A stretch of 64,000 nucleotides of DNA, taken from Sporopachydermia quercuum. Its lineage: Eukaryota; Ascomycota; Sporopachydermiomycetes; Sporopachydermiales; Sporopachydermiaceae. How positions within the stretch are numbered: the first letter of the stretch is position 1; each line of letters starts with the position of its first letter. The stretch spans positions 620,001 to 684,000 of the forward strand of contig BCGN01000005.1 of NCBI GenBank assembly GCA_001599295.1, in the 5' to 3' direction. Below, in pieces: positions 320 to 44,959 of the stretch. A program made the translations under genes and the position numbers. The notes under the pieces were generated by a model. That model was given only the letters and a program-made list of their open reading frames with translations. It did not search any database and was not told where the DNA came from.

Positions 320-2164
320 CTACCTTAATTGTGAGAACGCATCTAGAAGACCTGAAGAACCAGCGGTTTGGATTTTATTCTTTTCAAACACTTTCCAGAA
401 TCTAAGTGTCTCGTCACCAGCTCCTGTAACTATTGTTTGACCATCTGGGCTCATTGCTAGGTATAACACTCTATAACTATGGCCGGTGAGAGCTGCAGCC
501 TGCTGCATAGATGGGTATTTCCAAATAACGATTTGATTCTTAGAGAAACCATGTGTAGAAACTAATTCATTGGAATTCTTAGACCAAACCAAATTGCACA
601 CTTGAGAACCTGTGTCCACATCAGAAATTTTTTGTCCCGTTACTGTATTCCATATTTTGATCCTACGATCTGCTGTTCCTCCTCCTGACGCTAGTAAACC
701 CCTTTGATGAGTACTCCAGGCTACTGCTTTGACTGCGGCAACATGCCCCATAAGCTTGTGCAGAGGTTGTCTCGCCATTGCTCCATCCCATACTAGTAAT
801 TTATTATCATTACCACCAGATGCAAGCTTATTATCTTCAAGGTTCCATTTTAACCCACAGACCTCTTGTCGATGTTCAGTTAATTGTCCCATATAATGAG
901 CAGCTTCTCGTACGTCTCTTTGAAATATAATTTTGTCTCTACCTCCAGATGAAAGTATATGTTCGTTCCAAGCCAAGGCACCTACTCTTTCTGTATGACC
1001 AGTCATTGTTCTTGTTTTCTTACATAGTTCTGCATCCCAAATTTCCACCAGTCCCTTAGATGTTCCTACAGCCACATGGGTCCCTGCACCAATCCACGAT
1101 ACACTGGTGACTGAATCTTGTGGTCCTAGGTCGCATAGTCTATTTACACTTCCTGATTGAGCATCCCATAGATAAACACACGTGCCTAGTCCAACTGAAA
1201 GTATATCTGTCGACCCCCAATCGACCAGGTTCAAATAAAAATCGTCCGCTAATTCAGGAGCATCAAGAACACGATATGGTAACTTAGAAATGTCTCTTTG
1301 CTTCTTATGTGGTGATAAAAGTAATTTCTGACTATCCATTCTTACCGGAGATAAAGAATAGAGATCTGTTTCTGGTGTATATGCTGACATGTTTACCCTT
1401 GATGGTGATTTGTAGGTAAAAATGTTAGTGCTTTTTCCCCTCGGTGTTGTTACTATGTTAGGTCCTGGGAAGGGATTTTGTTCTGAAGGTGGTGTGCGCT
1501 GAAGAGGATCTGAGGGCTCTGGTCTTTGAGGTGGCACATCTGGTATTTGAGCTCCGGAGCCTGCCGAAAGTTGTTGTTGCTGTTGCTGTTGGATTAAGGA
1601 GCGGGTTTCAATTGAACCATCCCATGAAGCTGCAGAGTTGTTTAATGAAGATATTGATGTTGATGTTGAAGGTCTTGATAGACTTGTAGATGGTATGGCT
1701 GCAAATGGAACATTATCACCGAATATCTCAGCCTTAAGGATTGTTGAAAACGTTCGATCAGCAGTTTCTTGTTTCCTTAGATCTATATCGTTATCTGCTG
1801 TGTTTGGATTTACTCCTGTTGGTCCTGTTACTCCTGCTGTCAGACCTCCATCCAAATCGTTATCGCCACGACCATTGTTCCCATTGGTAGATGTAGAATT
1901 AATACTGTTTGAACTTCTGGATTGTCTGAAAGATGAGTTCTCGTCTTTCAGACTAAAAGCTGCCTGTAGATCAATACCAGTTCTGTTAGGAATGTATCTA
2001 TCTCCATATTTCTTCTTTTTCTTTTGCCTCGTGGGGGAGAATGTTGGGGAGCCCAATAAGCCCAATGAGCTACTTGATGATGGTCTTTCTGGAGACAGCA
2101 TCAAGCCTCTATCAACGGACCCTATAGGTGGTGTTGTACTTCTGAAAGGAGGTGTTGTGGGCAT
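320..2164 (-). CDS. CDH1: Cdh1/Hct1, WD40 activator of the anaphase-promoting complex
   Basis: A 614-aa substrate adaptor that brings destruction-box and KEN-box proteins to the APC/C in late mitosis and G1. The N-terminal third is Ser/Pro-rich with many SP/TP sites, as expected of a CDK-controlled Cdh1. The C-box, GDRYIPNR, lies near residues 54-61, and a glutamine run near residues 191-197. The Cdc20/Fizzy seven-blade WD40 propeller starts near KLPYRVLDAPELADDFYLN and fills the C-terminal half. The chain ends in Leu-Arg where the family normally has the Ile-Arg tail that docks on APC TPR subunits. The long N-terminus and the DRYIP form of the C-box favour Cdh1 over Cdc20. Neighbours SWD1 and ERP agree with the CEN7/CEN1 gene order of S. 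cerevisiae, where CDH1 is YGL003C. No intron seen. Confidence 0.93.
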   Translation of the reverse strand: MPTTPPFRSTTPPIGSVDRGLMLSPERPSSSSSLGLLGSPTFSPTRQKKKKKYGDRYIPNRTGIDLQAAFSLKDENSSFRQSRSSNSINSTSTNGNNGRGDNDLDGGLTAGVTGPTGVNPNTADNDIDLRKQETADRTFSTILKAEIFGDNVPFAAIPSTSLSRPSTSTSISSLNNSAASWDGSIETRSLIQQQQQQQLSAGSGAQIPDVPPQRPEPSDPLQRTPPSEQNPFPGPNIVTTPRGKSTNIFTYKSPSRVNMSAYTPETDLYSLSPVRMDSQKLLLSPHKKQRDISKLPYRVLDAPELADDFYLNLVDWGSTDILSVGLGTCVYLWDAQSGSVNRLCDLGPQDSVTSVSWIGAGTHVAVGTSKGLVEIWDAELCKKTRTMTGHTERVGALAWNEHILSSGGRDKIIFQRDVREAAHYMGQLTEHRQEVCGLKWNLEDNKLASGGNDNKLLVWDGAMARQPLHKLMGHVAAVKAVAWSTHQRGLLASGGGTADRRIKIWNTVTGQKISDVDTGSQVCNLVWSKNSNELVSTHGFSKNQIVIWKYPSMQQAAALTGHSYRVLYLAMSPDGQTIVTGAGDETLRFWKVFEKNKIQTAGSSGLLDAFSQLR

Positions 2165-3769
2165 TTTGCTGATGATGGTGTTGAATCTGATTGTGTGGCA
2201 ATGAATAAATTGCTATTGGCTATACTAACAATAAGTTATTCGGTTGATATAGCAAATTGGACTTTAATCGCCAGATCTGAATATAATCTAATGTACAGAG
2301 TAGTTGTGAAACTACCATTTAGTTTGATTATCTCACAGTTGATACGTAAAGCTGCCAATTGAAGATGTAGTGGTAAACAAGACTGTACAAACCTTTCCTT
2401 GTGGTACAGTACTCTACTGTTCTTCTTTGTTATTCCTTGTATTTCTGTCAGATGGATGGTACAACAAAAAGAATTAATAAGACTTCATTAGAATAAATCC
2501 TGAAGAGAGTTCAATTGATATTTGTGCTTAATACTTCTTTCTCTGGTTTATTCTTTTATCGCAGATGATCTAGTGTTCCGTCTGGACCTTCAATACATGC
2601 ACTATGCGTTTCCTATCAGTTGCCCAACAGCTAAGCTTATTTTGTTGGACTTTTTTNAATATTCCAAAATATCTTTCGCAATCTGTTTATATCAATCCTT
2701 TTGGTGGTTTGAATCTTCTCAGTTTACTGCTTTAATTGCTTGTCTCTGTTGTCGTCAAGCCAGCTTTTTGCTGGTACTTGTTCTACCTTTTGTAATGATA
2801 GGATTATTCGTTTCCAATACTAGCCTCTTTCCCTTCCCCGCTATAAATGCTAATTCAGTGCCTTTATTTGCAATTAGCATTTTTTTTTTTAAGGAAATGA
2901 AATTGATTTTTCATTAGCAGTTAATAAATGTTTGATAATAAAATGATGAACGTGCATAGTGATGATAGTTTAAAGTAATCATATGCGTTTAAAAAGATGG
3001 CATTTAAGGTGTTCAAAACCTTTCTTGTGCATTTGGTTTAAGATTTTTGGGAGCTTATCGATAAAGTGAGGTGACTGGGTGGAAAAGAACAGAAAAAGGG
3101 TCTAGTTAACCTTTTCCCAACGGTTACAAGACCCTTTTTCTGTTCTTGAATAAGGAGTGAGATGCAATGTGATGGAGACTGGAGAAGAAGCAAGAGAAGG
3201 TGCGTAAATGATTGTGAACGGATAGAGAACAGATGTTAATAGTTTATGCGGACAGACCAGGAGAAAGGGAAATAGATAAAATGTTTATCCCAACTGATGG
3301 CGCTATGGTATAAGCATGCTGGTTAGTCGTAATGTGGAATGGAATGGAAGCAGGTGGGAGGCGTGACCGTATAGCGGAAGTGATATAGAGTGGACTGGAA
3401 TTTACATCTTTTCCGAAATATGTTAGGCATTTGATGGTCAAAATACTGAGCAAGGAGGGAGTAGAAGAAATGATGGTAGAAATGAAGAAAGTATACAAAA
3501 GGAACGATAAAATTTACTATTAAAAGGCAATAATCACCATTGGATGTTTCCGTAAGTAGTTTAACTGGATGCTACCTTCTGCTAGTGTTATTTGTAGCAC
3601 GTAANGAGAACATCACTATATTGGCTTAGTATTTCCTTTCTATTATTACTGTAAACACATTACTTTTATTGTTCTTTTTCATTCAGAATATCAGAACATG
3701 AGATATCCTTGCTATGATTCTATATCGTCGCGTTCTATCATATAATACAAATCAGAGATCAGTGAAGAT
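2165..3769. other. 1.6 kb non-coding region upstream of CDH1
   Basis: CDH1 and SWD1 both run leftward, so this is the CDH1 promoter plus the SWD1 3' flank. It is long for this genome. It holds a strong perfect inverted repeat (3085-3147), a poly-T run near 2880-2891 and two single-base ambiguities (2657, 3605). The open frames present (for example 2522-2917) lack a good start and resemble nothing known. Confidence 0.6.
3085..3147. repeat. 19-bp perfect inverted repeat (potential hairpin)
   Basis: The left arm (3085-3103) reads aagaacagaaaaagggtct and the right arm (3129-3147) is its exact reverse complement. The 25-nt spacer has its own short inner pair (taacc...ggtta), so a long stem-loop can form. 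It lies in non-coding DNA about 0.9 kb upstream of CDH1. It could be a terminator, a remnant of a small transposable element or a protein-binding palindrome. No flanking target-site duplication is obvious. Confidence 0.85.
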
Positions 3770-5329
3770 CTAATCGTCGTCACTTTCAGGTTCCTGAATC
3801 TCTTCTTCCTCTAAACCAACCGGTATAACAAAAGAATTCAACATGATTTGATCAGCATAGGACCAATCTTCAGAACCCGATTGTCCATCATTATTAACAT
3901 AAGCTTTAGCACCATTNACACCATAGCTCTTGGTGATAACATCAACCTCAACATCTTCTTCGTCTTCTAACAGTCTTTGATTGATTCCTTCTTCAGATTC
4001 TATATCAAATTCGTCTTCTTTCTCTTCATATTCTACATTTTCTTCGATTTCCACGAAATCCGGTGCTAATGCGCTCCATTGTTGAGGTATCGGAACACCC
4101 CATATATAAACAGAGCCACTAATGTCACAACCAGCAATCATAGCTTTCCGGGGATTCCAAGCAACATTGACAATCTCATCTCTTGGACACTCCAAGATCT
4201 TTAATAGTGTGCCAGTGCCAGTTTCCCATAAATATATCTTCTTCTCAGTATCATGTGTGGATGCACATAAGAAGTCACCTTTTAAAGAGAAAGATATCGA
4301 GTTCCAAGAGATCTTGCCAATAATTACTTGATAGGACAAAACCACTCTCAGTCTTTGTTCATTCCCCGGTTTGATTTCACCGTTTTCTACATCAAATTCA
4401 GATTTTACCTCATTCTCGTTTCTGCCTTCGCGTTCATTATCACTTTCATCATCATCACTGTCAGACTCGTTCTTACTATTTGCCATTGTTGACCATTCTT
4501 TAACTCGATCTACTGTGTAATTATTAAAGCCCACAGGTAGGTTCATCTGTCTAACTACTTTATCACTGCAATTGAGGGCAAGGTAATTTCCCANTGTATT
4601 GATTATCATTCCAAGTATAGCAAAAGAACCAGAGAGCTTGTTACTTGATATTAGTTTCTTTGTTTCAGTAGATATAATACCTAAAGTTCCTCTTGAAGTC
4701 CCTACGAAAATATAGTTGCCATGAGGCTTCGAGAAAACTAAAGATGTAGGTTTTATAGATCCTGGATAGAACCTTTTTCTAACTGATGATCCTCGTGAAT
4801 GATCTTCAGGTGATGCAGAACCTCCAGCTGGAGACGATACACTTGAGTCAATGGATTTTTCTTCTTCTTCCATGATAGTACTCAGGGGGACAACTAATGG
4901 GTTGAACTGATTTGAGAAATCAACATAAAAAGGACCTGATCCTTGTAGAATAACAACAAATGCAAATTTATTCGAAGGATGCATTTCGGCCATTACAACA
5001 TTTTCCTCAAAATCATATCTCCGTAATGTTGATCCTGTAGATAAATCCCATAGAACTACTGTGCAGTCCTTGCTTGATGATAGTAAATACCTACCGCACG
5101 AGGACCATTGTAAAGATCGAATGATTTGNGTGTGACCTTTCAACACTTTCACTACACGATTGGTACCAAAATCATATATTCCAATCAATCCATAGTCGCT
5201 TCCGCATGCTAGATAGTCACCACTGAGATTGAATTGTGTTATATAATTATGCCCAAAATCTATTGAATGCACCAATGTGTCTGGGAAATCTTGGGCCACA
5301 GCAAATGGGTCTAATAGTGATAGATTCAT
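3770..5329 (-). CDS. SWD1: Swd1/RbBP5-like WD40 subunit of COMPASS
   Basis: A 519-aa WD40 protein of the Set1 histone H3-K4 methyltransferase complex (COMPASS). The start MNLSLLDPFAVAQDFPDTL matches the family N-terminus (MN-L-DPFAV), and the WD40 repeats follow. A diagnostic stretch near residue 420 reads PQQWSALAPDFVEIEENVEY and continues into an acidic EKEDEFD segment, almost as in S. cerevisiae Swd1. The C-terminal tail is strongly acidic. It is longer than yeast Swd1 (about 426 aa), mainly through acidic and serine-rich inserts around residues 150-180 and 290-325. Three single-base ambiguities fall inside the gene. It is divergent from the p24 gene at 5879, as SWD1 is from ERP1 at YAR003W/YAR002C-A. 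Confidence 0.94.
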   Translation of the reverse strand: MNLSLLDPFAVAQDFPDTLVHSIDFGHNYITQFNLSGDYLACGSDYGLIGIYDFGTNRVVKVLKGHXQIIRSLQWSSCGRYLLSSSKDCTVVLWDLSTGSTLRRYDFEENVVMAEMHPSNKFAFVVILQGSGPFYVDFSNQFNPLVVPLSTIMEEEEKSIDSSVSSPAGGSASPEDHSRGSSVRKRFYPGSIKPTSLVFSKPHGNYIFVGTSRGTLGIISTETKKLISSNKLSGSFAILGMIINTXGNYLALNCSDKVVRQMNLPVGFNNYTVDRVKEWSTMANSKNESDSDDDESDNEREGRNENEVKSEFDVENGEIKPGNEQRLRVVLSYQVIIGKISWNSISFSLKGDFLCASTHDTEKKIYLWETGTGTLLKILECPRDEIVNVAWNPRKAMIAGCDISGSVYIWGVPIPQQWSALAPDFVEIEENVEYEEKEDEFDIESEEGINQRLLEDEEDVEVDVITKSYGXNGAKAYVNNDGQSGSEDWSYADQIMLNSFVIPVGLEEEEIQEPESDDD

Positions 5330-5878: not shown

Positions 5879-6757
5879 ATGCGTGGGATTACATTAGTGG
5901 TGGCTATGATGGCCTACTTGGCATCAGCACAAGCATTTCATTTCTATTTAAGTGGTAGTGAGGGCAAATGCTTTTATCACGAGCTGACAGAAGGAACATT
6001 GGTTGTTGGTATGTAGAGTTGCTGTGATAGGATCAAGCTGGATTGAAATGAATTGAAATGATTGGAACAGGATAACTAACAAGTTCACTCTATAGGCAAG
6101 TACCAAGTTGATGAATGGGATGCTCGTATGCAAAACTATATCCAACACGATGATCTTGGATTAGCTATTACTGTTGAAGTACGTTCACACGTTTGAAAGT
6201 TCACTTGAAATTTCACAATGGCAACAATCCCATACTAACTAGTTTTCTATTTAGGAAGTATTTGATAACAATCACCGGGTGATGAATCAACGGGTGAAGG
6301 CCAATGGAGAATTTGCATTCACTGCATTAGACTCCGGTGAACATAGAATCTGTTTCAGACTTACTTCTAAAGGCTGGTTCTCATCTTCTAAAGGCCGTAT
6401 GTTCCTTGACTTCGTTGTTGGTGAAGACCAAGAATGGGATTCAAAGGGAGAAAACAAAATCAACTCTTTATCTTTGAAAGTCAAAGAATTGAACCATAAA
6501 GTTAGAGACATCAAAAGAGAACAAGCTTTAATGAGAGTATGTTAAATATAATTTATAGCAGATACCGATTTTGCAGTCTATTGTTTCTNTTACTAACATT
6601 GCTCTAGGAACGCGAAGCCAGCTTCAGAGATCAAAGTGAATCAACGAACGCTAGAGTTGTAAGATGGACATTTATTCAAGTTTTTGTCTTGGGTGTTACT
6701 TGTGCCTGGCAATTAAATCACCTCAGAGGTTTTTTCATGAAACAGAAATTAGTCTAA
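5879..6757 (+). CDS. ERP1: p24-alpha family cargo receptor (Erp1/Erp5/Erp6 type), 4 exons
   Basis: A p24/TMED protein of COPII/COPI vesicles, sorting secretory and GPI-anchored cargo between ER and Golgi. Coding exons: 5879-6008, 6096-6178, 6255-6536, 6608-6757 (214 aa). Donors are gtatgt, gtacgt and gtatgt; branch sites are aactaac or tactaac; acceptors are tag. The order is a signal peptide ([19 protein letters not shown]), a GOLD domain with the usual cysteine pair (GKCFYHEL and HRICFRLT), a coiled coil around residues 130-160, one membrane span and a short cytosolic tail, FFMKQKLV. That tail has the FF and dilysine-like signals plus the terminal Leu-Val of the p24-alpha class. Its place between SWD1 and VPS8 matches ERP1/ERP6 of S. 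cerevisiae. Only the third exon is apparent as a long open frame. Confidence 0.9.
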
Positions 6758-7523: not shown

Positions 7524-10500
7524 ATGACAAGATTGGAGGAAACTGGACAGCTTTNGGAAGCCAGCAACTCAACTGAATCCGTTGCAGTTGCAAACGGAAC
7601 CACCAGCGACCAGAAACTACTGGAAGATAATACCGGAGATAATGTTTCACTAGCATCGGATCAAAACGGATTTCTACGGATAAACTCTCCATCAATCCAA
7701 GGTAGTGCTCCGACGACACCCGAAAGAAAATTCCCGTATCTACTAAGACATTCACCTTCCGCTTTCTCTCCTGGTGGCTTAAGTGTTGCATCACCAGGTA
7801 GAAGACGCTTAGATGATCGGTTCCAAACTCGTATAAGTTCATTATACTCTCATCGACCGACGTCACGTACAAACTCACTATTATCCATATCTACCACATC
7901 CGAAGACCCTTTGTATTCGGATTCAAAGCTTAATGCCTTAGAACCAGTTAGATGGACCAAACTACGGCGGATATCGTCGTATTTGTTTTCTGCTACCATA
8001 ACATCTCTTTACGGATCCCCAACGACAATTCTACCTGCGGCAACGATATGTGTCGGTACCACAAAAGGATACGTGCTNGTTTTTGACTATCATCAAATTC
8101 TCCGAGCGGTTTTAGGTTACGGCACCAAAGCAGAAGAGTCCGGAGAAGTATCCGCTTTAGCCGTATCAGCCGATTCCACTGTTCTGGCCTCGGCACATGC
8201 TTCGGGTCATATCTTCACGTGGGATTTAACCCAAGCAATAAATATCGGAGCGGGAATATCCGCGGCTCGGAGTTCCAACAATTTTGGCACCGGTTCCGGT
8301 CCCGGGTTAAAACCTTCCATAGAAATACCTCCTCAGAGTAAATCCGGTTCCGGACATCAACCGGGGGCCAATATTTTACATGTAAACTTTATTGGTAAAC
8401 GACATTCCGCTTTGGTTTCTGCTGATGTTTTCGGAATGTGTTATGCCCATGAATTGGTTAGAGGAGTTCTCGGCAAATCGGTAAAAACGTCTCGAGTTCT
8501 TGGCCGACCTCCATCAGCTAATCAAAATGCCAAAGTACCGAACTCCAAACTCACAACCATTCTAGATTGTTCCGCAATGCCTCTGGGTCCTGTTGTTGAT
8601 CCGTGTGATGAACTTGGGCTCGTCGCTCTTTTAACTCCCCATGTATTGGTGATTGTGTCTACAGTCCCAGTACCTGCTACACAATATAAAACGGGTCGTC
8701 CCAAAGTTCTCGATACCAGATTGGGTATCTCGGGATGTCTTGCCTGGTTCCCCCCCTTGAAGACTCGAGATTCGGGATCAGATTCAGGAAAACACACCGA
8801 ATCAGGATATCCGAGGTTGGCTTACGGATGGGGTAATATTCTAACGGTTTTATCCGTCAAGTCAACCGAGACAAAGAACGGAAAAGATAGCAAGAAGACT
8901 ATTTCATTAGAGTTCAGTAGTAAGAAACGATGGGTAAGTTCAGAAACAATAGTAGCTGTACAATGGGTTTCCTCTAAGATAATTGCCGCTTTAACCAAAA
9001 CTCAACAACTAAGCCTTATAAACGCGGAAAAGATGACGGAATGTGCTTCTGCTGATCTTTTAACTCGACATATTCTTCACAGAGACGTATTTTCGTCACA
9101 ATTGTCTGGTTTGAAGTTTGATACTTCGGCTGAACAAGTTAAGATTTCCGATTTATTTGCTCAATCATTTCGCAGTTTCAAAGGTCGTTTATTCCTTTTA
9201 GGAAGATATGAATTTATGGTGGGCGCATTAGCGAATTGGGCCGATCGGCTGTTAAGTATAATGTCCCAAGGCAGGTATGTGGATGCTATTGAATTAGCTA
9301 GAGAGTATTATATAGGCGAAGAGACTGATTTGGTGATAGTGGGGTTACCAGAAGATGATAAAACAAGACATAAGATGCTTTATAATCAAATACTGGAGAT
9401 GGTAATGGCATCATTAAGGTATACGTTCAGAAAGGCTAGTAAGGATAGCGGAGAAGATAATACAAACAATTTCGGAAATGATATTGAGAATAGGAAACCC
9501 AAAAATATCGGAGATGATGTGTTTACGAATTTCGGAGAACATAGTGATTATTCANGACATGGAAGTGAGACTGGAAGTGAGACTGGAAGAGAATTGGGGA
9601 CTTTAACCGAACTATTACCCGTTTGTTTCCGGGCTTGTGTTGCTGTTGGAGCTCCTGAATTTTTAACCGAACAAATATTCGATTATTTCAATTACGGAAA
9701 TCATTTGGGTTTGTTCTTTGATCTATTAGCACCATTTATTCTCAACAAAGATCTCACAGTATTACCACCTACAGTACTAGAAGCGATGGTTTCTTATTAT
9801 ATCTCTTCCGGTCAAGGAGATAAACTAGAAGAGATAATATGCACAATAGATCTCCGGAATTTAGACTTGCATCTAGCTATTTCTTTGTGCGAAAAACATC
9901 ATCTTCGAGATGCCTTAAGTTATATATGGAATGTGGCATTAAATGATTACATAACGCCATTTATGGAATTTATTAGCCTAATGAATANCGGAAACTATGA
10001 AGATGAAAGGGAACCAAATAAAGTATACGGCTATATTTCCTATATACTAACCGGACGGCAATATCCAACTGATTATATGATTTCTGATGGAGATGTTACT
10101 CTTGTGTCGCGGGCGAAAGCTCAACTTTACTATGCTATCTTCCGAGGTTCCGCTATTGAGTGGCCTCAAGGATCGGACAAGATAGTTGCCGAAGTCATAA
10201 ACGGAAGAAATGATACATCTTTTCCGTATTTATATCTCCTGGTTAAATTCAACCCACAAGAGCTTTTGGCATCTTTTAATGAAGCATTAGAAGATGAATT
10301 TCTCAACTATGATGAACAGGAAGGTGCGCTGTTTGATACGCTTGATTCTCATTCGAATACCATGAAAGTAAGCCGACAATATATTGTGGATATTCTATTT
10401 GAACTATTTGATAGCACTGATTTATCCGAAGATGCGGAAGCGGTTACATATTTTTGGATTTTTATTGCCCGGAACTATCCGAAGTATCCGCAGTTTATTG

Positions 10501-12392: not shown

Positions 12393-12921
12393 TTCAAATA
12401 TGTTGATCTAATTTCCAGTTTTTGTTAGTTAAGAGTTTGACTTTATAAATAGAGTTTGTAAGTGGTGTCAACTTAAAACTGAATTGCTAAACCCTAAATC
12501 TAGAGCGTTAACTTTAAAAAGTCATCTTCACAAAACTGATCATTGATTTGCTTCGTTTATACTTTTGTTTCCTCTTCAATTTCTTCCCTGTTTAAGAAAT
12601 CTCCTGATTAATAGCTAGTATAATACATGAACATAATTATAGACTTTAAATAGCATAAGAATTATTCTAAGAATCGCCTGACGCGAAAACAATTGAAACT
12701 CCAGCTGATTTGACAGTAACTTTGNTGATCCAAAAGTTAAGCCACCTACAATTGTTCAGTTGAGAGTACGAANACAATACGCCTATTTCGTTAACTGTCA
12801 GGTAGTTCAGTAAATCATTACTTGGGTACTACTGTCGAACTGCTATATCTCTGTTTATGCTGCTGCTGCCAACCTTTCTTAACTAGCAAGATTAATAAAA
12901 AGGAGGTACATCACTAGCAAA
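12393..12921. other. VPS8-CFEM gene intergenic region
   Basis: 529 bp of AT-rich sequence with two ambiguous bases (12725, 12773). It serves as VPS8 3' flank and as promoter of the spliced gene that follows. No repeat or RNA gene is seen. Confidence 0.45.
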
Positions 12922-13948
12922 ATGACTAGCTTCAATCAAATCCTTCTTTTATGGATGAAAATAAGCGTTTGTCTTGCATTTCTGCCAACATATGTTTATG
13001 CTGCTAACAATCAAAACGTACTTCTACCATCTTACTACACTCTCCTTCAGGGCGCTTGTGTTTCTTTCATTGCTTGAAATCCGGAAAGAAATATCTGTAA
13101 ACCCCTTGATCAAACAGTACTAACATTCAAAAACAATCTTTTTCTAGAATAATGAATGTTTACAACTGATGGCAAAAAGTATTGCTTCTTGTTCTGAGTC
13201 TGACTTAGTTTGCCATTGTTGTGTTGTCCTTCATGGCGACACTAGTTGTTCCACAAGTTTTAAAGATAGCGTAAGTGTATTATTACAGTAATCAGAACAG
13301 TTAGACAGACCCAATATTGTTTTCTGTACTGAAGAAGAAATGATTAGACCTTAGAATCTTCAATTAACGTGATAAACATTGTAATATAGGAGATTGAATT
13401 ATTAGTGAANGCATTAGAAGAGAAATGTAAAGACATCTCAGCTGAGACATGCAAAGAGTTCAGTAAGAATTTAAGTGATGAAAAGGGAAAACCAAGTAGT
13501 ACCATAACTGATACTTTAAAAGAGTTAACTACAGGTATGTCATAACAATTCTTATAATCACAGCACCCGCAATTGAAATCCTATATGTCGATTGGTACTA
13601 ACTGTCTGAACCATCCAAGAGTCATCTAAAATCAGCCCCGATGAAATAAAACCAACTTCTCCGTCAAAACCACCATCAATAATATCAACTTTCAACAACT
13701 CTGAAACCTTCAAAACAAAGAAGGTCCTGATTTCCACCAGAACAGTCACCGATGAATCAGGAATATTTATCACAACCCAGACTTTAGCAAGTGATCCTAG
13801 AAAATCTTATCCTCATCATTCATCAGTAATAGAGCTTGCAAACCAAGGAAATGGTTTGTTTGGTTTTTCTGTTGTATTCACAGTATTTATCTCAATGATT
13901 GTTATCATATTAAGTATTGTCCTACAGCTTGTGTTCCTGACGGACTGA
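12922..13948 (+). CDS. Secreted CFEM-type cysteine-rich, probable GPI-anchored protein, 4 exons
   Basis: Assembled from the sequence, because no single frame is long. Proposed exons: 12922-13059, 13148-13270, 13390-13534, 13620-13948 (244 aa). It has a signal peptide (MTSFNQILLLWMKISVCLAF, ending near YAAN), then a cysteine pattern C-x3-C-x10-C-x3-D-x2-C-x-C across the first junction. This is the CFEM signature, including the aspartate that coordinates haem iron in characterised CFEM proteins. More cysteines follow (TSC, EEKC, AETC), then a Ser/Thr/Pro-rich stalk. The end is a small-residue site (ANQGNG) and a hydrophobic tail running to the stop, like a GPI signal. Introns 2 and 3 have gtaagt and gtatgt donors; introns 1 and 3 have TACTAAC. 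The first donor (gtttct) is weak. Function (haem or iron capture, or wall structure) is inferred only from the family. Confidence 0.65.
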
Positions 13949-14108: not shown

Positions 14109-14145
14109 GATATCAAATGAATTCTTTTATTGATATACAACACAT

Positions 14146-15219
14146 CTATTTACTTTCTTTGCTTTCCTGTTCATCCATCCATTCAAGCGTTTTCCTAATA
14201 CCTGCTTCTAAATCAACAGCTGGTTTATACCCCAAAATAGTCTTTGCTTTAGTAATATTATGATATCTATAAGCACATACAATCTTAACTCTGAACGGAG
14301 TCAGTCCTGGTTCTCTACCTAAAAGCTTTGAGACACCTGCAGATAAATAACCAGCTAAAATAGCTACAGGACGATTTAAAACAATAACCTTCTTATCGAT
14401 ATGTCCATCAGCTTTCCAAACTGTTCTAGCCAAAGTCCAGAAGTAAGTAGGAGCATCATTAGTAATAAAAAATGTTTGACCACCAACATCTTTGGCTACA
14501 GAGGGATCATCACTTAATAGCTTTTCTGCTGCTAAAACATGAGCGTCTGCAACATTTCCAACGTACGTCCAATCGAACAAATTATTATTGTCACCAATCT
14601 GAAATTTAGACTGTCCAAGCTTTGCTACTTGTCGTAAACCAGGGACAAGCTGTCGATCTCCAGGACCAAAAATACCAGCTGGTCTTAAGGCAACAGTTAG
14701 AAAGATGCTGTCGGGATCATTTGCTTCTAACACCATAACTTCAGCTCTTGCTTTGGTATCATTATATGCATCCATTGGAACCGCAGGATATGGATATGTC
14801 TCGTCAGCATTTCTGATGTCTTGACCATTGAAAATTACCCCTGCTGATGATGTATAAACAACTGCTTTGATCCCTAATTCTTTAGCGACCTTCAATAAAT
14901 TAGAAGTTCCATCAATGTTGACTTTTTCGTAAATTTCTTTCTGTTGACCATGAATTGGTGATGCTGAATGAACAATTACATCCGGTTTAGCAGCTTTGAT
15001 TGCTTTACTGACATCTTCCGAGGATGACAAATCTCCTTGATGGAATTCTATCTCTGAGGGATCAAATGTAAAAGATTTTGATAAATGTTCTTTGTCAGGG
15101 AGACCTCTTACGTCAAATACGTGCACTTTTGGTTGTGGTGATAGATCATGAAACTTTTGAACAAGATGTAACCCGAGGAAGCCCGCTCCTCCTATTAAAA
15201 GGACCGATTTGATAGCCAT
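14146..15219 (-). CDS. ERG26: Erg26, C-3 sterol dehydrogenase (C-4 decarboxylase)
   Basis: A 357-aa short-chain dehydrogenase of ergosterol synthesis. It acts in the ER with Erg25/Erg27/Erg28 to remove the C-4 methyl groups by NAD-dependent oxidation and decarboxylation. The Rossmann motif GGAGFLG lies near residue 10. TSSAGVIFNGQD and the catalytic Tyr-x3-Lys (AYNDTKARAE) follow, then ALRPAGIFGPGDRQLVPGLR, which is nearly identical to yeast Erg26. I start at MAIKSVLL (ATG at 15219): the upstream frame to 15315 adds 32 residues absent from the 349-aa yeast protein. In S. cerevisiae ERG26 is YGL001C, the gene next to CEN7, which fits the surrounding block. Confidence 0.96.
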   Translation of the reverse strand: MAIKSVLLIGGAGFLGLHLVQKFHDLSPQPKVHVFDVRGLPDKEHLSKSFTFDPSEIEFHQGDLSSSEDVSKAIKAAKPDVIVHSASPIHGQQKEIYEKVNIDGTSNLLKVAKELGIKAVVYTSSAGVIFNGQDIRNADETYPYPAVPMDAYNDTKARAEVMVLEANDPDSIFLTVALRPAGIFGPGDRQLVPGLRQVAKLGQSKFQIGDNNNLFDWTYVGNVADAHVLAAEKLLSDDPSVAKDVGGQTFFITNDAPTYFWTLARTVWKADGHIDKKVIVLNRPVAILAGYLSAGVSKLLGREPGLTPFRVKIVCAYRYHNITKAKTILGYKPAVDLEAGIRKTLEWMDEQESKESK

Positions 15220-15677
15220 TGTGAAAATCGAATGACCAGAAAGCTTGAATCTTAACAAATTATAGGCCAAGACGAGCGAGTAAAAATAATNACTTTTTAT
15301 AAAGAATCTTGCCACAATTCAATGGTTTTTACGCTAGAGAAGAAAAGTGTTTATTGATTTGTTGCTGCATGATCAGCCTATTGATCAATGCTGAACGCGT
15401 GGAAATGAAAGGTTGGAGTTTGTGTCAATTGGTATGACATGTTATGTCACACCATGTTGTGTTATGACTGGGATGTTCATGACATATTAAAATCACGCGA
15501 CTTAACACGTGATCGCAAGGGTAACTGCTGCTTTTATATTTATTGAATAAACTACAATTGATAGAGAGTAATAGGAATAAAGGAGTCACGCAAAATGTTT
15601 ACAAAATGTTTACTGTATTAATTTAGTCTCGGCTCCTTGATCTTGTATATTATTATGTTATGTAATGTAGTATATAA
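15220..15677. promoter_or_regulatory. ERG26 promoter
   Basis: 458 bp between co-directional ERG26 and NUP60. It contains an MluI-type hexamer ACGCGT (15395-15400), several acatgt/gtcaca-like words around 15433-15470 and an E-box (15506-15511). One ambiguous base lies in the discarded ERG26 extension (15291). Confidence 0.5.
15506..15511. promoter_or_regulatory. CACGTG E-box (Cbf1/bHLH type)
   Basis: CACGTG with flanking bases reads ATCACGTG on the minus strand, a full RTCACRTG match. It lies about 290 bp upstream of ERG26, so it may be a bHLH or Cbf1 site. The presence of the motif is certain; its use is not. Confidence 0.35.
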
Positions 15678-17162
15678 CTAAAATGCGAACAGTGAGATTG
15701 GTAAAGTCTTTGCAAGAGTCTTGTCTTCCTCAGAGATTGGCTTACCATTAATTCCGGAAAACTGCTTACTAAAATAGTCAACATATTTTTCTTTGTCTTC
15801 TACTGTATCCTCAGTTGTGGAAGTAGAGGGGGAAGTAAGAGTAGAAGAAGAACTGGAACCGGAACCGGAAGTGGTATTGATAGGTGCAGGTTCTTCCTTG
15901 GTAGCAGTATTTTTGGCACCAAAACTAACATTAGCAGTACCAAAGCTTTGATTAGTTGTGTTNAGCGTAAAGCTTGGTTTACTGCTATCTGATTTGCTAT
16001 TGACTGCAGCTAAAGGTGTTTCCGGCTTACTATCTAACGTTGATGTAGTTGCAGATGTGGTACTTGGTTTAAAGGAGCTGGGAGCAGGATTTGAAACCGG
16101 TTTCTCTTCAGCTTGGTTTCCTGTAGAATTCTCATTGCTTTGTTTGGTTTTCCCTTCACCATTGGATTCGCCATTTACATCTATGCTTTCACGTAATTGA
16201 GACGGTTTCAATGGTTTGAACTTGAACAGGTTGTCATTACTCTTTGGAACAGGGGAAGCAGTGTTTGAATATGATACAGGTGTAGGTGAAAAGGACATTG
16301 GTTCCGGTCTTGAAGAAGGTTTATCAAAAGACAGCTTAGGAGGACTGGTAGGTCTTGGTTCAATAGCTTTTATATCTTTGTCGCTTCCTTTGATAACAGG
16401 GAATTCTTCATTATCACTAATTAACGATAACAGAGTTGATGCAGTTTGACTGAGATTTTGCTGTGAATCTGATTTATTGGCCTCTGAAGATTGAATTTGC
16501 TTTCTAACACTATTTTTGTCATACCTATCGCTAGGATCAGTCATTGCTGATGATCTGAATGGCGATGGCACACTAGAAAACTGAAACCCCGATCTACGCC
16601 TCTCAGATGATAATTTTCCAACAGAAACAACCAGTGGAGACCTTGTCCTCTTTGTCACGTCCTTATAAGGACTTTCCGTTAACTTTGAAATTGGTGTCTG
16701 GGCTTCTGATTTGTGACTTTCTTCTGTTACTTGTTTCGATGCGCTTTCATCTAGTTTGTTCTGCTCTTTCAGTAACGATAGAACTCCTTGCATTTCTATG
16801 TCAGATAACGGTTCCTTACCCTTCTGAGCAAAAAAAGCAGAGAGCCTTTCATTTGGAGATCTTGCACTTATTTCGGACGTATTTTCAATTATTTGTGCAG
16901 GCGTTGATGGTCCTAAATCATTGAATGATGGATATTTCTTAGGTTCTTCCTCGATTGTTTTCTTAGTTGGGAGTTCATCTTTTCTACCATAGAAAAAACT
17001 ACGGACTTTCGACAGCAATGATGATGGCGTACTTGTTTGTTTAACAACTCTCCTCTGGGGTGTAGATGGTCCTGATCGAGCGTAAGGCGAGGATGACGAT
17101 GCACCAAACCTACGGTTCGTTCTCATCACTCTGCTCTGGTCTTGAGATTGGAAAGGGTTCAT
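15678..17162 (-). CDS. NUP60: Nup60-like FG nucleoporin of the nuclear basket
   Basis: A 494-aa, highly polar, Ser/Thr/Pro-rich, largely disordered protein. Near residues 48-60, SLLSKVRSFFYG is an amphipathic segment like the one Nup60 uses to bind the inner nuclear membrane (LFSKIKTFF in S. cerevisiae). A FKFKPL motif and sparse FG sites (SFGTANVSFGAK) lie in the C-terminal half. Sequence similarity alone is modest because such proteins evolve fast. Position is strong support: it is divergent from TFC3 and lies near ERP and SWD1, exactly as NUP60 (YAR002W) does across CEN1 in S. cerevisiae. Length is close to yeast Nup60 (539 aa). Nup1 or Nup2 are less likely alternatives. One ambiguous base at 15963. 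Confidence 0.72.
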   Translation of the reverse strand: MNPFQSQDQSRVMRTNRRFGASSSSPYARSGPSTPQRRVVKQTSTPSSLLSKVRSFFYGRKDELPTKKTIEEEPKKYPSFNDLGPSTPAQIIENTSEISARSPNERLSAFFAQKGKEPLSDIEMQGVLSLLKEQNKLDESASKQVTEESHKSEAQTPISKLTESPYKDVTKRTRSPLVVSVGKLSSERRRSGFQFSSVPSPFRSSAMTDPSDRYDKNSVRKQIQSSEANKSDSQQNLSQTASTLLSLISDNEEFPVIKGSDKDIKAIEPRPTSPPKLSFDKPSSRPEPMSFSPTPVSYSNTASPVPKSNDNLFKFKPLKPSQLRESIDVNGESNGEGKTKQSNENSTGNQAEEKPVSNPAPSSFKPSTTSATTSTLDSKPETPLAAVNSKSDSSKPSFTXNTTNQSFGTANVSFGAKNTATKEEPAPINTTSGSGSSSSSTLTSPSTSTTEDTVEDKEKYVDYFSKQFSGINGKPISEEDKTLAKTLPISLFAF

Positions 17163-17995
17163 TGCTATGATGTTTCTAATTCCTATGGCAAATATAAACC
17201 TGAAAACACTCAGAAATCTCCTCTGATACCACCAAAAGTATTTGAAGCAATTTTTTGAAAGAATCTACTCGTTTCCCATTCTTTTTCATCTTTACTTGAG
17301 CTGAATGTAGAAAATAAGTACGAAGAATGACAAAACGGTATAAAAGTTCTATATGTGCGAAACAAAACCGGAAGTTAGGTATCAGGTGTTCAGGTGTTCA
17401 GTGAAAATGTCGGAAACTATACCAAACGAGATTTTCTCCTATACTATAAGATTTGGGGTGACACATCAGCTGTTTAATTCAAAATATTTTATAATCTTAA
17501 AACCGCCAATACTACGTTTCAAATTCAACTTTTACATACTTTAGTTCTACACTCCAAGCGGAATTCACTACCTCCCCACCAAGATTAAATAGATTCTGCG
17601 AAATTCCGGAAACTATTACATTTCCCTACTTGAAATCTAAAATCTCACTTCAGAAGTACTTCTCCACATCGAGACCTCATATTAGCATTCCTTCACATCT
17701 CTCTCCGTTTCACTCTTATCGTACCAAATAGATTTCTCTATGAGAGAGCAACGCGAGACAATGTCATCCTTCATATTTACTATCTATGTTAGTGTTATTG
17801 ATGTTACTACTGTCAACAGCCTGTTAATATTATTAGCTAGGTGAAATTCTTTCTTGAAATTCGCTGAATAATGTTTTCCAGTTGTTATTATTTCTGACCC
17901 GGTATATGCTTCTATTTTTCCTGCCTCAATAAATAGTAATATCGATATTGATACAGTGCACTTTTGGATGCAATGATTGCTTGGGGTGAGCTACA
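17163..17995. promoter_or_regulatory. NUP60/TFC3 divergent promoter; positional equivalent of CEN1
   Basis: 833 bp between divergent starts. In S. cerevisiae this junction holds CEN1. The sequence is of ordinary AT content. I find no RTCACRTG followed by about 80 bp of nearly pure AT and a TTTCCGAA core. A palindrome ttccgga lies at about 17604-17611. Short direct repeats (caggtgttcaggtgttcagtg, about 17383-17403) are present. Confidence 0.6.
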
Positions 17996-20900
17996 ATGAC
18001 TGAACCTACAAAACGGAGGAAGAAGCCTCTGACTCCAGCGCTCATTATTAAATCAATTATTCACGAGCTTTCATTTTTTGGCCTACAAGGCGCAACCCTT
18101 GATGAACTTTGGGCCCTTGTCGCAGAGTTTTCAGGAGACATTGATCAAATACTGAAATGCGCAATATGGGCATGGCTTATGAGCCATCCGAAATGCTTTG
18201 TGTATGTTGATCGTAAACCTATGGACAAATCGGATTTGAACGACTATGAATATGTGTTTTCATCATTCTCTGAAACCCTCAGAGTTTGCTCTGACGAAGA
18301 AAGTATCTATCTAGCTTTAACTAAACATCCCAAGCAAAACAATCCTATACCTGCGGGTCCTTTTGCTATATTGAGTGATATAGCAAGAACTAGACATTTA
18401 GGCATAACATCTACAAAACTTGCTTTACAAACCAATCAACAACCGAGAAATCTCGGCGCCAAGCTAAAAAGAATTATGGCCGCTAATCTTGTTGTTAGAT
18501 ATCCAGTAGTTATGGCTGGCCACCTTCAGTTCTTGCTGGTTCATTCTAACTTCACTGATAGAGTGCAATTTGACAAATCAGACGCTGTACGTAAAGCGAA
18601 TAAATTAGGGACCGAGGAACTAGAAAAATTGGCGTTGACCTTGATAGAAAAACTGAAAAGCAAAAATAGCTCAGGAATCTACGGAGAACGGAGATTATAT
18701 GAAGAGTTAACGGCTGTGGGAGCTACAACCGAGAATCTGAAAACAGTAAAGAAGTCCCTAGTGAAAATAGGTGTTCTGAAGGAAGTCGTAGCTGTAGCAA
18801 AGAACTCTGCTACGTCCAAACGTTATAGATGTTTACAATACGTCAAGGAGTTTCACCCTGGAGATCTAACGGATAGACATGATGCTAGTGACGATGACAG
18901 CGAGAACGATGAAGATCTCATTGGAGATCACGACCATAATGAAACAGAATACAATGATGATTCTGTCAATAACAGTGATTTAATGCCTGATCCTGACGAT
19001 ACCATTGAACTAGAGATATCAAACCAGCCTTTTTCTTTATCGTCAACAGACGAAAATACCATAAAAGATGATGTTTCTACTACCAATATAACTATCAGAA
19101 GAGCCATTGGATACAATCCCGATTTTGGTCCTTGTCTCAACAGATTTGTCCCATTGGAAACTCAGTTTTTCTCAGTGATTCAACGTAATCCTGGCATATC
19201 TTCTATGCAGACACGAAGAATTCTCCTGGGTGATTATTGTAAGAAGGTGTTTGATCGTTTGGTCGACAATTTGATCATAGATTATACTAATATAAACAAA
19301 TCAATTCAACCAGAAGTATTAAAACATTTAACTCTAGTTAAGGGTTATGATTTCAAACTTAAAGTGCGTTTCTGGAGGCTATTCACTTACGAGGACTATG
19401 CACAATCTCATAATATAAATATACCTTCCGATTCTCGCTGGGGCGAGTTCTTTGATGATCCTTCTACTGATTTTGTTTCTTACCTGGCTGTAACAGAGGA
19501 TTGCACATTATTAGGTTCAATGAGATCTCTGCGGCTATTGAATGAATCTCTGAAGATGAAATTCAAGAACAGGATGGTTTCTGGAGTAAAGAAAGGCAGG
19601 CCGAGGCTAACAGAAGAACAGCTTAGAGAGAGAGAAGACAAGGCCAATGCTAAAGGGAAAGGGAAAGGCAAAGGATCAACAGTGAAGACAGAAACTGGTA
19701 AAGGCAGAGGACGACCGAGGAAGAACCCTGCCATTGTTAAGAGTGAAAATGGTGAGAATGCAGTTAAAATTGAGAATGAAAACGAAAATAACGGTATAAT
19801 TGATGAGGATTTGCCTGTTAGAGCAGCATTGGGTACGAACATTGAGGAGGATCACAGCACTGAGAGTCTGGAAATGACAAATAAGACAGAGATGGAAGTA
19901 AGCAGGAAAAGAGGAAGACCACGGAAGACAAGTAATACAAATGAAGCTAAGAGTAAGAAAGCGAAGACAGAAAATGCTGGGAAAACGGGGATAATAAATG
20001 AACCAAAAACCATAACGGAGACTTTGGAAACCTCGGAAACAATGGAAACCATGGAAATAATACCAGGAACAATCCCGGAAAATATATCGAGAACAACAGG
20101 GTCCTTAGATATCGAGCCGAGTTTACAATCACATAATTCTTCTCACACTCGTGCAATCTCACCAGCTACTTCGTCATCTTCTAACCAAATTTTCCCCCAA
20201 GGAAACGCAGTTGAAACATTATCTGCATCTACATCCGCAACTGCATCAAACTTAACTATGCCTGTTGAAACACACCCACAAGAAATGCGTTCTGTTTCAT
20301 CATTTCTCTCCTCTCAAACATATACACCTATACCAAACAGGAAAACAATTACATCAAAAACAATCAATTCCACCTGGAAAAGCAAACTTAAGCAACTCGA
20401 AAAAGAGAAGAAGCAAAACAGCAGTCATATCTTTACCAATAAAAGCTTCAATTCAAAATCCAGACAGTCCATGATTTTAGGCATAGTAAAGGATAAAAAA
20501 CTAGCCTTTGGTGGTAGCCATATGATTAGAAGCCTGAAAGATAAGTTAGGCAGATCGATTGATAAGAAAACGCTTGACAGAGATGTTGATGTATTAGTAG
20601 CCGAGAAGAAAATAAGAAGAGTGGTAATAGCTTTACCAGCCGATGCAACGGGGGGAATTTCCTACAGATCTGTGCTTATATATGGCAGTTCTGGCGAAGA
20701 GACAGATGAATTAATTAGTAAGCTTAAACAGAGAGTACTGGAATTAGAACGGAAGAACAANAGTGAGATTGCCAGTGAATTGAGTAAAGCCCGAGAGATC
20801 GTAGTATTAGATAAAAGCCATTCGGTTTGGGACCAACAGAGAAAAGCAGCGGAGAAGAGGAAAAAACGATTAGAGTCGCTAAAGGGAAATGGCCAGCCAA

Positions 20901-22708
20901 CTAGGGATAGGGAAAATAGCCGAAATAGTACCAAGCTTGTTCCGCTGAAAGAAGGGTTTGGGGAAAAGAGCTTGCGACTGTCGGATGAGCCTGATGGAAA
21001 AGAGAAAGAAAAAGAATGGAAAGAACGACGGAAAATGGCAGTAAAGACAGAGGGAAAAACGACCGTAAAAACGAGGGGAACATCAGAGGTCAGACCAACG
21101 GAGCTAAACTCATCCGAAAGCAAGGTCAAAAGCATTTCCGAGAAATCTCGAAAACCAAAACCTCGGAAGAAACGGAATAACAGCACTCAGGATATCTCCG
21201 ACCCGCTCTTAACCTTAAACATAGTCCATGCTAAAGGCAGCAAACTGAAAGAGAGGAAACATGAGCCTAAAACTCAAGCAACAAGCAATGATGACTCAAA
21301 GGTTTTCCCCAGAAGAATAAGGCTTTCCGAAGGGGTAAATATTAATGTCGAATTGCTGTTTAGACTGGTGATCGTATCGAAGATGCTCTCAAACAATGGC
21401 GGCATTGATTGGGATCGGCTGAGTATTTTACTAGATGGGCTGCCAGTGTTTTTATTGAAAGCCAAATGGACGTCAGTGAGGTCCAAAATTGGTGGCCAAG
21501 CTACAGTTTTTTTTGCTTCTCAAGCTTTTGAGAAAATCGTTCTGGAAAGCATTGCTGATGGTTCATTAGAAGTTAACGATTTAGAACATATGGATTATGA
21601 GTATTTGGTGGCATTCTGGAAACAGAAGGACAATTTGTTCACAGAAGATGTGGTCGTTCCTTTGTTCAGCGATGTTGAAGCTATTGAAGCAAACTACGAG
21701 TTCAATGCTACTGCAAATGAATCGGTCGACTTCCTAGCCAGCTATGAGAATGCTTATTCAACAATCACCAGGACCGAGATAATAGCTGAGTGTGATTTTT
21801 CATGTATCAGTTATAATAGTGCACAGCTACAGATAACCAGTGGAAACAAAGAGCGAGAAGTTAAATCAGATAGATCAGATGGACAACTGGAAGAGGTGAT
21901 TCAGACTATTAAAGGAATAACAGCTACCATTGAAAAAGAATATGAAAGTGAAAAGGCTAAAGAGGTGTTACTACAGTATGGCGAATCAACCGTTGAAAAC
22001 GCAGTAAGGAAAATGGAAGAGGATAAAATTGTTATTTATGTTCCTGGGGACCATGAGAAACGAATTCCTGGTAGAAGTTTTACATTTTCTGAGAAATTCT
22101 ACGGTTCATTGCAAACAAAGATGCCTGAATGTAATTTACAAGATGTTTTTATGTTTCATGATGTAATGAAACGAGAATTAATCAAAAGAAATGGCATAAT
22201 GCTTGATTATGTTCAGACAGACAGCGCAATGATCAGTTTGTTGAGCATGATAAGTAATCAGGAGATCGATCTCATAAGAGTTGATTTGAAAACGAGTCCT
22301 GATAAATTGATAGATGGCTACGTCTCAAGAGTAGTTGATAGATCTAAACTTGACTGTGGACTTTTAGTAAAGCAAACGGGGAAACTTAAAATAGAACCAA
22401 AAGACAAAGTTTTGAATATCCAGCCTCTGCTGGATAAAAATGGTTGTACAAGGATTTGGATTTCATTGTCAGGTGGACTAAATAAGGATATATTCCATGA
22501 TTTGATTAGAAGCTTATTGTTTAATATATGTTTAAGACCAGGTATACCATACAAGGTGCTGAAAAGCATTATGTCTATCACACTGACCACCGATGAATTT
22601 GATGAATTGCTATGTTGGCTTGAAGATAATAAGATTATCCATAGGGGACCATTAGATGGTCTATGGGTTGAAGATGTGTGGTATAGAGCATTGAATATTG
22701 GAGTATGA
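17996..22708 (+). CDS. TFC3: Tfc3, tau138 (B-box binding) subunit of TFIIIC
   Basis: A 1570-aa subunit of the RNA polymerase III factor TFIIIC, which contacts the B box of tRNA genes. Winged-helix-like segments fill the N-terminus. The middle contains KKTLDRDVDVLVAEKKIRRV, matching yeast Tfc3 DKKTVRGDVDLMVESEKL. The C-terminus (IPYKVLKSIMSITLTTDEFD, then LCWLEDNKIIH and WVEDVWYRAL) parallels the yeast end (RCREVLSLHEISEICKWLLE). A disordered basic linker around residues 525-650 holds three AT-hook cores: KKGRPR, GRGRPRK and KRGRPRK. It is longer than the S. cerevisiae protein (1160 aa), largely because of the linkers. Its location beside NUP60 agrees with YAL001C next to CEN1. No intron seen; one ambiguous base at 20761. 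Confidence 0.92.
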   Translation: MTEPTKRRKKPLTPALIIKSIIHELSFFGLQGATLDELWALVAEFSGDIDQILKCAIWAWLMSHPKCFVYVDRKPMDKSDLNDYEYVFSSFSETLRVCSDEESIYLALTKHPKQNNPIPAGPFAILSDIARTRHLGITSTKLALQTNQQPRNLGAKLKRIMAANLVVRYPVVMAGHLQFLLVHSNFTDRVQFDKSDAVRKANKLGTEELEKLALTLIEKLKSKNSSGIYGERRLYEELTAVGATTENLKTVKKSLVKIGVLKEVVAVAKNSATSKRYRCLQYVKEFHPGDLTDRHDASDDDSENDEDLIGDHDHNETEYNDDSVNNSDLMPDPDDTIELEISNQPFSLSSTDENTIKDDVSTTNITIRRAIGYNPDFGPCLNRFVPLETQFFSVIQRNPGISSMQTRRILLGDYCKKVFDRLVDNLIIDYTNINKSIQPEVLKHLTLVKGYDFKLKVRFWRLFTYEDYAQSHNINIPSDSRWGEFFDDPSTDFVSYLAVTEDCTLLGSMRSLRLLNESLKMKFKNRMVSGVKKGRPRLTEEQLREREDKANAKGKGKGKGSTVKTETGKGRGRPRKNPAIVKSENGENAVKIENENENNGIIDEDLPVRAALGTNIEEDHSTESLEMTNKTEMEVSRKRGRPRKTSNTNEAKSKKAKTENAGKTGIINEPKTITETLETSETMETMEIIPGTIPENISRTTGSLDIEPSLQSHNSSHTRAISPATSSSSNQIFPQGNAVETLSASTSATASNLTMPVETHPQEMRSVSSFLSSQTYTPIPNRKTITSKTINSTWKSKLKQLEKEKKQNSSHIFTNKSFNSKSRQSMILGIVKDKKLAFGGSHMIRSLKDKLGRSIDKKTLDRDVDVLVAEKKIRRVVIALPADATGGISYRSVLIYGSSGEETDELISKLKQRVLELERKNXSEIASELSKAREIVVLDKSHSVWDQQRKAAEKRKKRLESLKGNGQPTRDRENSRNSTKLVPLKEGFGEKSLRLSDEPDGKEKEKEWKERRKMAVKTEGKTTVKTRGTSEVRPTELNSSESKVKSISEKSRKPKPRKKRNNSTQDISDPLLTLNIVHAKGSKLKERKHEPKTQATSNDDSKVFPRRIRLSEGVNINVELLFRLVIVSKMLSNNGGIDWDRLSILLDGLPVFLLKAKWTSVRSKIGGQATVFFASQAFEKIVLESIADGSLEVNDLEHMDYEYLVAFWKQKDNLFTEDVVVPLFSDVEAIEANYEFNATANESVDFLASYENAYSTITRTEIIAECDFSCISYNSAQLQITSGNKEREVKSDRSDGQLEEVIQTIKGITATIEKEYESEKAKEVLLQYGESTVENAVRKMEEDKIVIYVPGDHEKRIPGRSFTFSEKFYGSLQTKMPECNLQDVFMFHDVMKRELIKRNGIMLDYVQTDSAMISLLSMISNQEIDLIRVDLKTSPDKLIDGYVSRVVDRSKLDCGLLVKQTGKLKIEPKDKVLNIQPLLDKNGCTRIWISLSGGLNKDIFHDLIRSLLFNICLRPGIPYKVLKSIMSITLTTDEFDELLCWLEDNKIIHRGPLDGLWVEDVWYRALNIGV

Positions 22709-23354: not shown

Positions 23355-24314
23355 ATGGATGACGAACTGTAAGTATCAGCTGATAGTGATTATCAACTTA
23401 TCTTCAGAATAAACATTCCAACAAACATTCCATTATAATGAAAGCATCAAAAATCATCATATCACTAAATCTGACACTAACAAATGCTCTTTGTAGATCT
23501 CTAAGTGCATCAACATTAGCTGCATTAACAGAGTTCCGTCAGGAGCAGAAGCAAAGGGAAGAACATTTTGCAAAGCTATATCAAACAGCAGAGAACCAAT
23601 TTGAAGAAACCGATGATGATGAAGTGAAAGAAAAAGGGATGGAATTATTTCAGGAAGATTGGAATTTGTCCCAATTTTGGTATAACGACGAAACATCAAG
23701 AATCCTTGCTGAATCAATTCTGGAAGGTGCTACAAAAGATACATATATAGCTGTTATCAGCGCTCCATCAGCATATGCTGCTATATTGAAACTGCCACAA
23801 CAAAAAATTCCCACTCAAAACATTTATCTACTAGAGCATGATAACAGATTCAAATTGTTAGGAAAAGATAAGTTTCTGTTTTATGATTTCGCCAAGCCAT
23901 TTGATCTACCAAAGGAACTTAAAGGCAAGTTTGATAGACTGATAGTCGATCCGCCATTCTTATCAGAAGAATGCCAGACAAAAGGTAAGTTGGCTTTGAT
24001 CAGCATTTGATTGGATTTTATGTTGTTTGTCAATGTAATAATTTCCATAAGAAAGAATAAAAAGAACTGATTCTAACAACTGTCAAGCATCATTGACTGC
24101 ACGATGGATGCAGAAGCTCGGTGAGGATAATATGCCATCAAAGGACAACAGAGTTGTGATTTGCACTGGTGAAAGAATGGAACATTTGATTGTTGACAAG
24201 CTTTATCCTGGTATGAGGACAACTTCTTTCTATCCTGGACATACTAACGGGCTGAGCAATGAGTTTAGATGCTATGCTAATTTTGAGTCCAAGCACTGGA
24301 AGTACTCCCCGTAA
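23355..24314 (+). CDS. EFM5: Efm5 (EEF1AKMT1-type) lysine methyltransferase, 3 exons
   Basis: A 242-aa methyltransferase of the N6AMT2/Efm5 family, which methylates translation elongation factor eEF1A on lysine. Exons: 23355-23368 (only 14 nt, encoding MDDE plus two bases), 23497-23984, 24088-24314. Donors are gtaagt in both introns; acceptors are tgtag and caag. The catalytic motif DPPF with its family context (VDPPFLSEECQTK) ends exon 2, and exon 3 begins ASLTARWMQKLG. The length agrees with S. cerevisiae Efm5 (248 aa), whose gene (YGR001C) is next to CEN7 and also spliced near its start. The tiny first exon is inferred from phase and consensus: ATG GAT GAC GAA CT joins A TCT to give LSLSASTLAALTEF, the family N-terminus. 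Confidence 0.9.
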
Positions 24315-44943: not shown

Positions 44944-44959
44944 AAGCTTGTGATAGTAA

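Follow-up and report, generated by a model that had tools for sequence, protein, structure and literature searches.

What does it mean when eight genes found beside two separate centromeres of Saccharomyces cerevisiae stand in a single row in another yeast? We addressed this question in a 64-kb stretch of contig C5 (C5:620001-684000, hereafter the window, which includes 20 N), taken from a 12-contig genome of 16.39 Mb to which C5 contributes 1,485,630 bases. Positions 320-24314 of the window hold CDH1, SWD1, a class-alpha p24 gene (ERP1/6), VPS8, ERG26, NUP60, TFC3 and EFM5, interrupted by one insert, and our analysis confirms that genes from the flanks of two S. cerevisiae centromeres are neighbors here. 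Reading frames, Pfam families and Protein Data Bank (PDB) matches bear out the loci, positions and strands that a preliminary description had given for this run, with NUP60 the weakest of them:

320..2164, minus strand: CDH1 (APC/C activator); Pfam WD40_CDC20-Fz 8e-124; in the PDB, CDH1/FZR1 ranks over CDC20
3770..5329, minus strand: SWD1 (COMPASS); top PDB match COMPASS SWD1, 4e-62
5879..6643 (end approximate), plus strand: ERP1/ERP6-type p24 gene with four exons; splice model of 214 residues; Pfam EMP24_GP25L 4e-51
7524..12392, plus strand: VPS8; Pfam Beta-prop_VPS8 2e-63; PDB Vps8 5e-75
12393..13948, plus strand: insert, extra gene or genes without a family; open reading frame at 13610-13948 plus a piece with CSESDLVCHC; no Pfam family
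14146..15231, minus strand: ERG26; Pfam 3Beta_HSD 1e-82; PDB sterol-4-alpha-carboxylate 3-dehydrogenase 8e-51
15678..17162, minus strand: NUP60; alignment with a provisional S. cerevisiae Nup60 reference sequence, 4e-16
17163..17995, no strand: NUP60-TFC3 interval, orthologous to the S. cerevisiae CEN1 interval; 833 bp, GC 0.348
17996..22708, plus strand: TFC3 (tau138); PDB tau138 2e-22; Pfam B-block_TFIIIC
23438..24314, plus strand: EFM5, two exons (intron 23985-24087); Pfam N6-adenineMlase 1.9e-59

Seven of the eight genes (all but NUP60) are backed by Pfam, and these, except EFM5, for which the PDB held no relative, also match a correctly named relative of solved structure. The best PDB matches of CDH1 are Fizzy-related/CDH1 proteins (7e-149, 6e-148 and 4e-143), against 1.5e-102 for the best CDC20. 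The p24 model begins at an ATG at 5879 and removes introns at 6009-6095, 6179-6254 and 6537-6607; its product is closest to TMED9 (1.3e-33) among PDB relatives, ahead of TMED10 (1.5e-14) and TMED2 (1.4e-10), which fits ERP1/ERP6, since TMED9 is a class-alpha p24, like ERP1, ERP5 and ERP6. The introns of the splice models (three for p24, one for EFM5) are short, with GTATGT-like donors. NUP60 returned no Pfam family, no homolog at E ≤ 0.001 among 7,981 protein-database candidates scored and a single chance-level row (E 0.58) in the PDB. Its product does align, in a single comparison, with a provisional S. cerevisiae Nup60 reference sequence (E 4e-16; 80 of 280 positions identical), and the aligned region includes NERLSAFFAQKGKEPLSDIEMQGVLSLL opposite NAKLANFFSKKGNEPLSEIEIEGVMSLL of that reference. 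The insert had been described as a CFEM gene, and an open stretch near 13.15-13.29 kb carries CSESDLVCHC, which resembles the CFEM core. Pfam returned no family for three pieces of the insert, only a chance-level match (E 3), and no gene model came out of a simple search for splice sites. The CFEM identity was not confirmed. Elsewhere in the block, the gap between CDH1 and SWD1 contains a perfect 19-bp inverted repeat with a 25-bp center (window 3085-3147).

Table 1 of Gordon et al. 2011 (PMC3141009) lists CEN1 (+) and CEN7 (-) of S. cerevisiae as the two descendants of the ancestral centromere Anc_CEN4. With opposite signs, it is chromosome I's right arm that pairs with the left arm of chromosome VII, as ERP1 and ERP6 show. 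Our comparison uses the S. cerevisiae gene names, positions and strands, with NUP60 and TFC3 bracketing CEN1. Once chromosome I is turned, SWD1, ERP1, NUP60 and TFC3, as well as CDH1, ERP6 and ERG26, agree in strand with the window, as had been claimed for these two sets. Seven of nine gene comparisons thus agree, and VPS8 and EFM5 are inverted; the inversion of EFM5 had gone unmentioned. VPS8, said to have moved to the NUP60 side, does lie across the NUP60-TFC3 junction from its S. cerevisiae side; the move may have taken place here or in the other lineage.

Because CEN1 and CEN7 both derive from Anc_CEN4, the block reads as the unduplicated order, later split in S. cerevisiae by gene loss. 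We consider it very probable that the block is the pre-duplication gene order around Anc_CEN4, kept in a lineage that split off before the S. cerevisiae genome duplication. The surroundings of Anc_CEN4 would have been retained in a lineage that branched before the duplication, and probably before the Pichiales/Phaffomycetales split, and alternate loss of one copy per gene in post-duplication S. cerevisiae would have left survivors at both CEN1 and CEN7. Chance or functional clustering of unrelated genes would have to account for eight named loci that are consecutive but for one insert and for strands that agree in seven of nine comparisons, in a set of genes with no common function; we give such clustering next to no chance.

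Is the interleaving of two S. cerevisiae chromosomes specific to this block? As a control, we named 60 genes by eye in C5:520001-784000 (the window plus 200 kb), excluding unnamed or uncertain genes, and defined a linked group as genes whose S. cerevisiae names lie within eight numbers of each other. Naming by eye favors well-known genes, and links through paralog names (DPP1/LPP1, SAM1/2) may be accidental. Pfam agreed on the family for all 27 named genes scanned outside the block, a level at which the paralog is not settled. Linked groups, 14 in number (one of eight genes, two of four, five of three and six of two), took in 43 of the 60 genes, and the block was the longest, followed by groups of four. 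We counted 44 linked pairs; 2,000 shuffles of the 60 genes gave 8.0 on average and never more than 19. Two S. cerevisiae chromosomes are also mixed in MIG-CHZ1-YPT31-SPT16 and in COY1-RPL17-ATG27-ATP12, and chromosomes IV and XII interleave in RRP1-ARP6-SMC4-VTC5-SLU7, which our script scores as two groups:

54350..63998, no strand: RRP1, actin-related gene (ARP6 by position only), SMC4 and a VTC5-like gene; Pfam Nop52, Actin and VTC; SMC4 homologs
C5:687434 (L019:3437-4927): SLU7, following the RRP1-SMC4 group; Pfam Slu7

These mixed groups lie away from S. cerevisiae centromeres. Since interleaved groups occur away from centromeres, the interleaving in the window is a general mark of pre-duplication order, of which the block is just the longest case. 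The preliminary description had seen a pre-duplication pericentromere; the pre-duplication order stands, whereas the interleaving does not mark a pericentromere and no centromere feature was found. We infer that slow rearrangement, seen across all 264 kb read, would suffice for the conservation, with no special mechanism needed; added stability near the ancestral centromere may explain why this group is the longest.

A second ancestral flank is partly kept. On contig C3, a TRAP-alpha/IRC22-like gene (Pfam TRAP_alpha 3e-15) adjoins URM1, and IRC22 flanks CEN5 of S. cerevisiae. CEN5 and CEN9 descend from Anc_CEN7 in the table of Gordon et al. 2011 (PMC3141009), and URM1 is named as centromere-adjacent by Hession et al. 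2025 (PMC12711049). The Anc_CEN7 flank is thus partly kept at the IRC22-like/URM1 pair. Three more genes of ancestral centromeres, NOC3, RRP6 and a trehalase gene, were located too, with about 1.5 kb read on each side.

The host had been described as an intron-rich and seemingly distant yeast; it is intron-bearing in the splice models and distant in trees of SMC4 and VPS8. Of the seven CTG codons of SMC4, three align with columns in which 31, 31 and 29 of the 31 homologs have Leu (with Met in the remaining two), and CUG is accordingly decoded as Leu. In a midpoint-rooted, single-gene SMC4 tree of 32 rows (the query and 31 of 120 listed matches), Kuraishia, Wickerhamomyces ciferrii, W. mucosus and nine rows without a name form a group that excludes the query (support 100/99), and query and group are jointly separated from Dipodascales, Lipomycetales and Pezizomycotina (100/100). 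A second, quickly built tree for VPS8 (24 rows, the query and 23 of 120 listed matches), likewise midpoint-rooted and from one gene, places the query outside a group with Komagataella, Pachysolen, Brettanomyces and Ogataea (support 100). These small trees put the yeast outside the sampled named members of Pichiales, Alaninales, Dipodascales and Lipomycetales. On the tree of yeast orders, such a position would be consistent with Sporopachydermiales or Alloascoideales, neither of which had a named representative among the matches.

Several observations weigh against a retained Anc_CEN4 order in an early-branching lineage. VPS8 and EFM5 are turned or displaced, and the NUP60 call depends on a provisional reference sequence and on position; as the weakest of the eight, the gene is taken as NUP60 with caution. 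RER1, an Anc_CEN1 gene, lies on contig C1 among a kinase, a PQ-loop protein and others, and the 20 kb read there held no recognized immediate Anc_CEN1 neighbor. The trees are small midpoint-rooted single-gene trees with few named yeasts and offer no nameable candidate relative, and Pachysolen is the closest by score among the VPS8 matches listed.

Does the block still contain a centromere? Using Hi-C and chromatin immunoprecipitation sequencing, Hession et al. 2025 (PMC12711049) located the centromeres of nine species and describe positions conserved over three orders (Saccharomycetales, Saccharomycodales and Phaffomycetales) and about 208 million years. NUP60 and TFC3 are immediate divergent neighbors in the window, 833 bp apart. 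This interval might still be the centromere, of a compact, sequence-defined and undescribed type, with selection on the site holding the flanking order. The intact, divergent CEN1-bracketing pair would fit such a site, as would the rank of the block as the longest of the 14 linked groups and the locations kept despite changed structures among the yeasts of Hession et al. 2025 (PMC12711049). The interval itself argues otherwise: among 26 divergent gaps it ranks fifth from the short end (21 of the other 25 are longer), in a list that misses genes with many short exons and so lengthens other gaps, and it has no repeats. It is also not AT-rich (maximum of 72 AT per 100 bp, below 88 of 97 intergenic pieces). 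A DNA search that skipped simple repeats found no further copy of it in the genome, and it was dropped as a candidate for a centromere built on shared DNA.

The interval does share a short word with the Anc_CEN7 flank:

17643..17656, plus strand: 14-bp word TCTCACTTCAGAAG; exact match in the IRC22-URM1 interval, contig C3

Exact copies of TCTCACTTCAGAAG number two in 16.4 Mb, one in each of these intervals at Anc_CEN4 and Anc_CEN7 flanks, which would favor a centromere still in place. Against this, a word that long is shared by 53 of 4,000 random intergenic pairs (1.3%), making it weakly unusual, and copies with one mismatch number 12, compared with eight for a control word, with none on contigs C4, C6, C10 and C11. 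Two of the four one-mismatch copies fetched sit in long open frames. We regard the word as a weak lead only, and a centromere still seated between NUP60 and TFC3 as unlikely. It is quite improbable that the 833-bp NUP60-TFC3 and the about 0.7-kb IRC22-URM1 intervals are both working compact centromeres sharing a short motif in a lineage outside Pichiales and Phaffomycetales. If they were, centromere places would predate the three orders under study, and the S. cerevisiae side would not be alone in having small centromeres.

Alternatively, this chromosome may have its centromere elsewhere, moved or regional, with the gene order a trace of the old place, a reading to which we give an even chance. 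The block has no centromere-like feature and no coding-free stretch longer than 1.8 kb, hence no gene-free region of several kilobases. Weighing on the other side, Hession et al. 2025 (PMC12711049) count only one long-distance move among 49 Phaffomycetales centromeres, and there is no positive sign of a different site. Within the 264 kb, the widest gene-poor gap (8.5 kb at C5:582918-591413, 37 kb away, without long reading frames) proved single-copy in the 7.1 kb that were searched. It lies upstream of a gene for an APSES-type regulator, a class that can have long promoters, so it is no clear candidate for a regional centromere.

Known centromere types were also looked for. The window held no pair of CDEI and CDEIII cores 40-300 bp apart, and a strict CDEI-gap-CDEIII pattern matched the genome once, at C2:995232-995335. 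NDC10_II (Ndc10, CBF3) had no genome match in a search without a positive control. The inverted repeats found in the 264 kb at 1e-5 reach about 63 bp at most, with none of kilobase size. Ty5-like clusters gave no marker, as RVT_2 matched just twice in the genome, both times on contig C9; these two copia-type reverse transcriptase matches lie together at C9:836294-840884, one with two internal stops. A DNA match at window 28161-28372 was rejected as a centromere element because it is a piece of a RasGEF gene: these ~210 bp, between an ENTH gene and ILV1, match part of a RasGEF-type, LTE1-like frame at C6:471236-471452 at 70% DNA identity and are probably a gene fragment. As far as the sequence goes, we saw no sign of a centromere anywhere in the block, the NUP60-TFC3 interval included, and gene order alone was seen.

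In comparison with the flank of Anc_CEN4 (Gordon et al. 2011, PMC3141009), the genes of its descendants CEN1 and CEN7 stand here in one row with NUP60 and TFC3 as neighbors; VPS8, however, is on the other side, EFM5 is turned, one extra gene is present and no point centromere was found. Ancestral centromere-side genes stay together, as in the yeasts of Hession et al. 2025 (PMC12711049), where six of seven Starmera quercuum centromeres share one to five adjacent genes. Here, however, gene order alone was seen, the yeast appears to branch deeper and the block is long, with eight genes versus one to five. Blastobotrys adeninivorans (PMC4022394), likewise intron-rich and distant, also has small conserved gene blocks; 92% of its blocks relative to Yarrowia have fewer than four genes, compared with one block of eight relative to S. 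cerevisiae here, although the counting methods differ. Searches of open-licence literature, preprints excluded, turned up no account of this block in a lineage of this kind. The kind of phenomenon is known, and the novelty is one more lineage, apparently a deeper one, with this gene order, which extends the order and not the centromere. With eight such genes in a row and much other conserved local order, a deeper lineage of this kind would serve well as an outgroup in reconstructions of the ancestral yeast genome, and the block offers a definite place to ask whether centromere positions exceed 208 million years.

Other parts of the window yielded minor observations. A PEX11-family gene (Pfam; 47209-48132) stands outside any conserved group. 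At 43927-46287, a pantothenate kinase gene (Fumble family, CAB1) adjoins a gene for a Sos7/Kre28-family kinetochore protein (Pfam), and CAB1 and the Sos7/Kre28-family gene are neighbors in S. cerevisiae as well.

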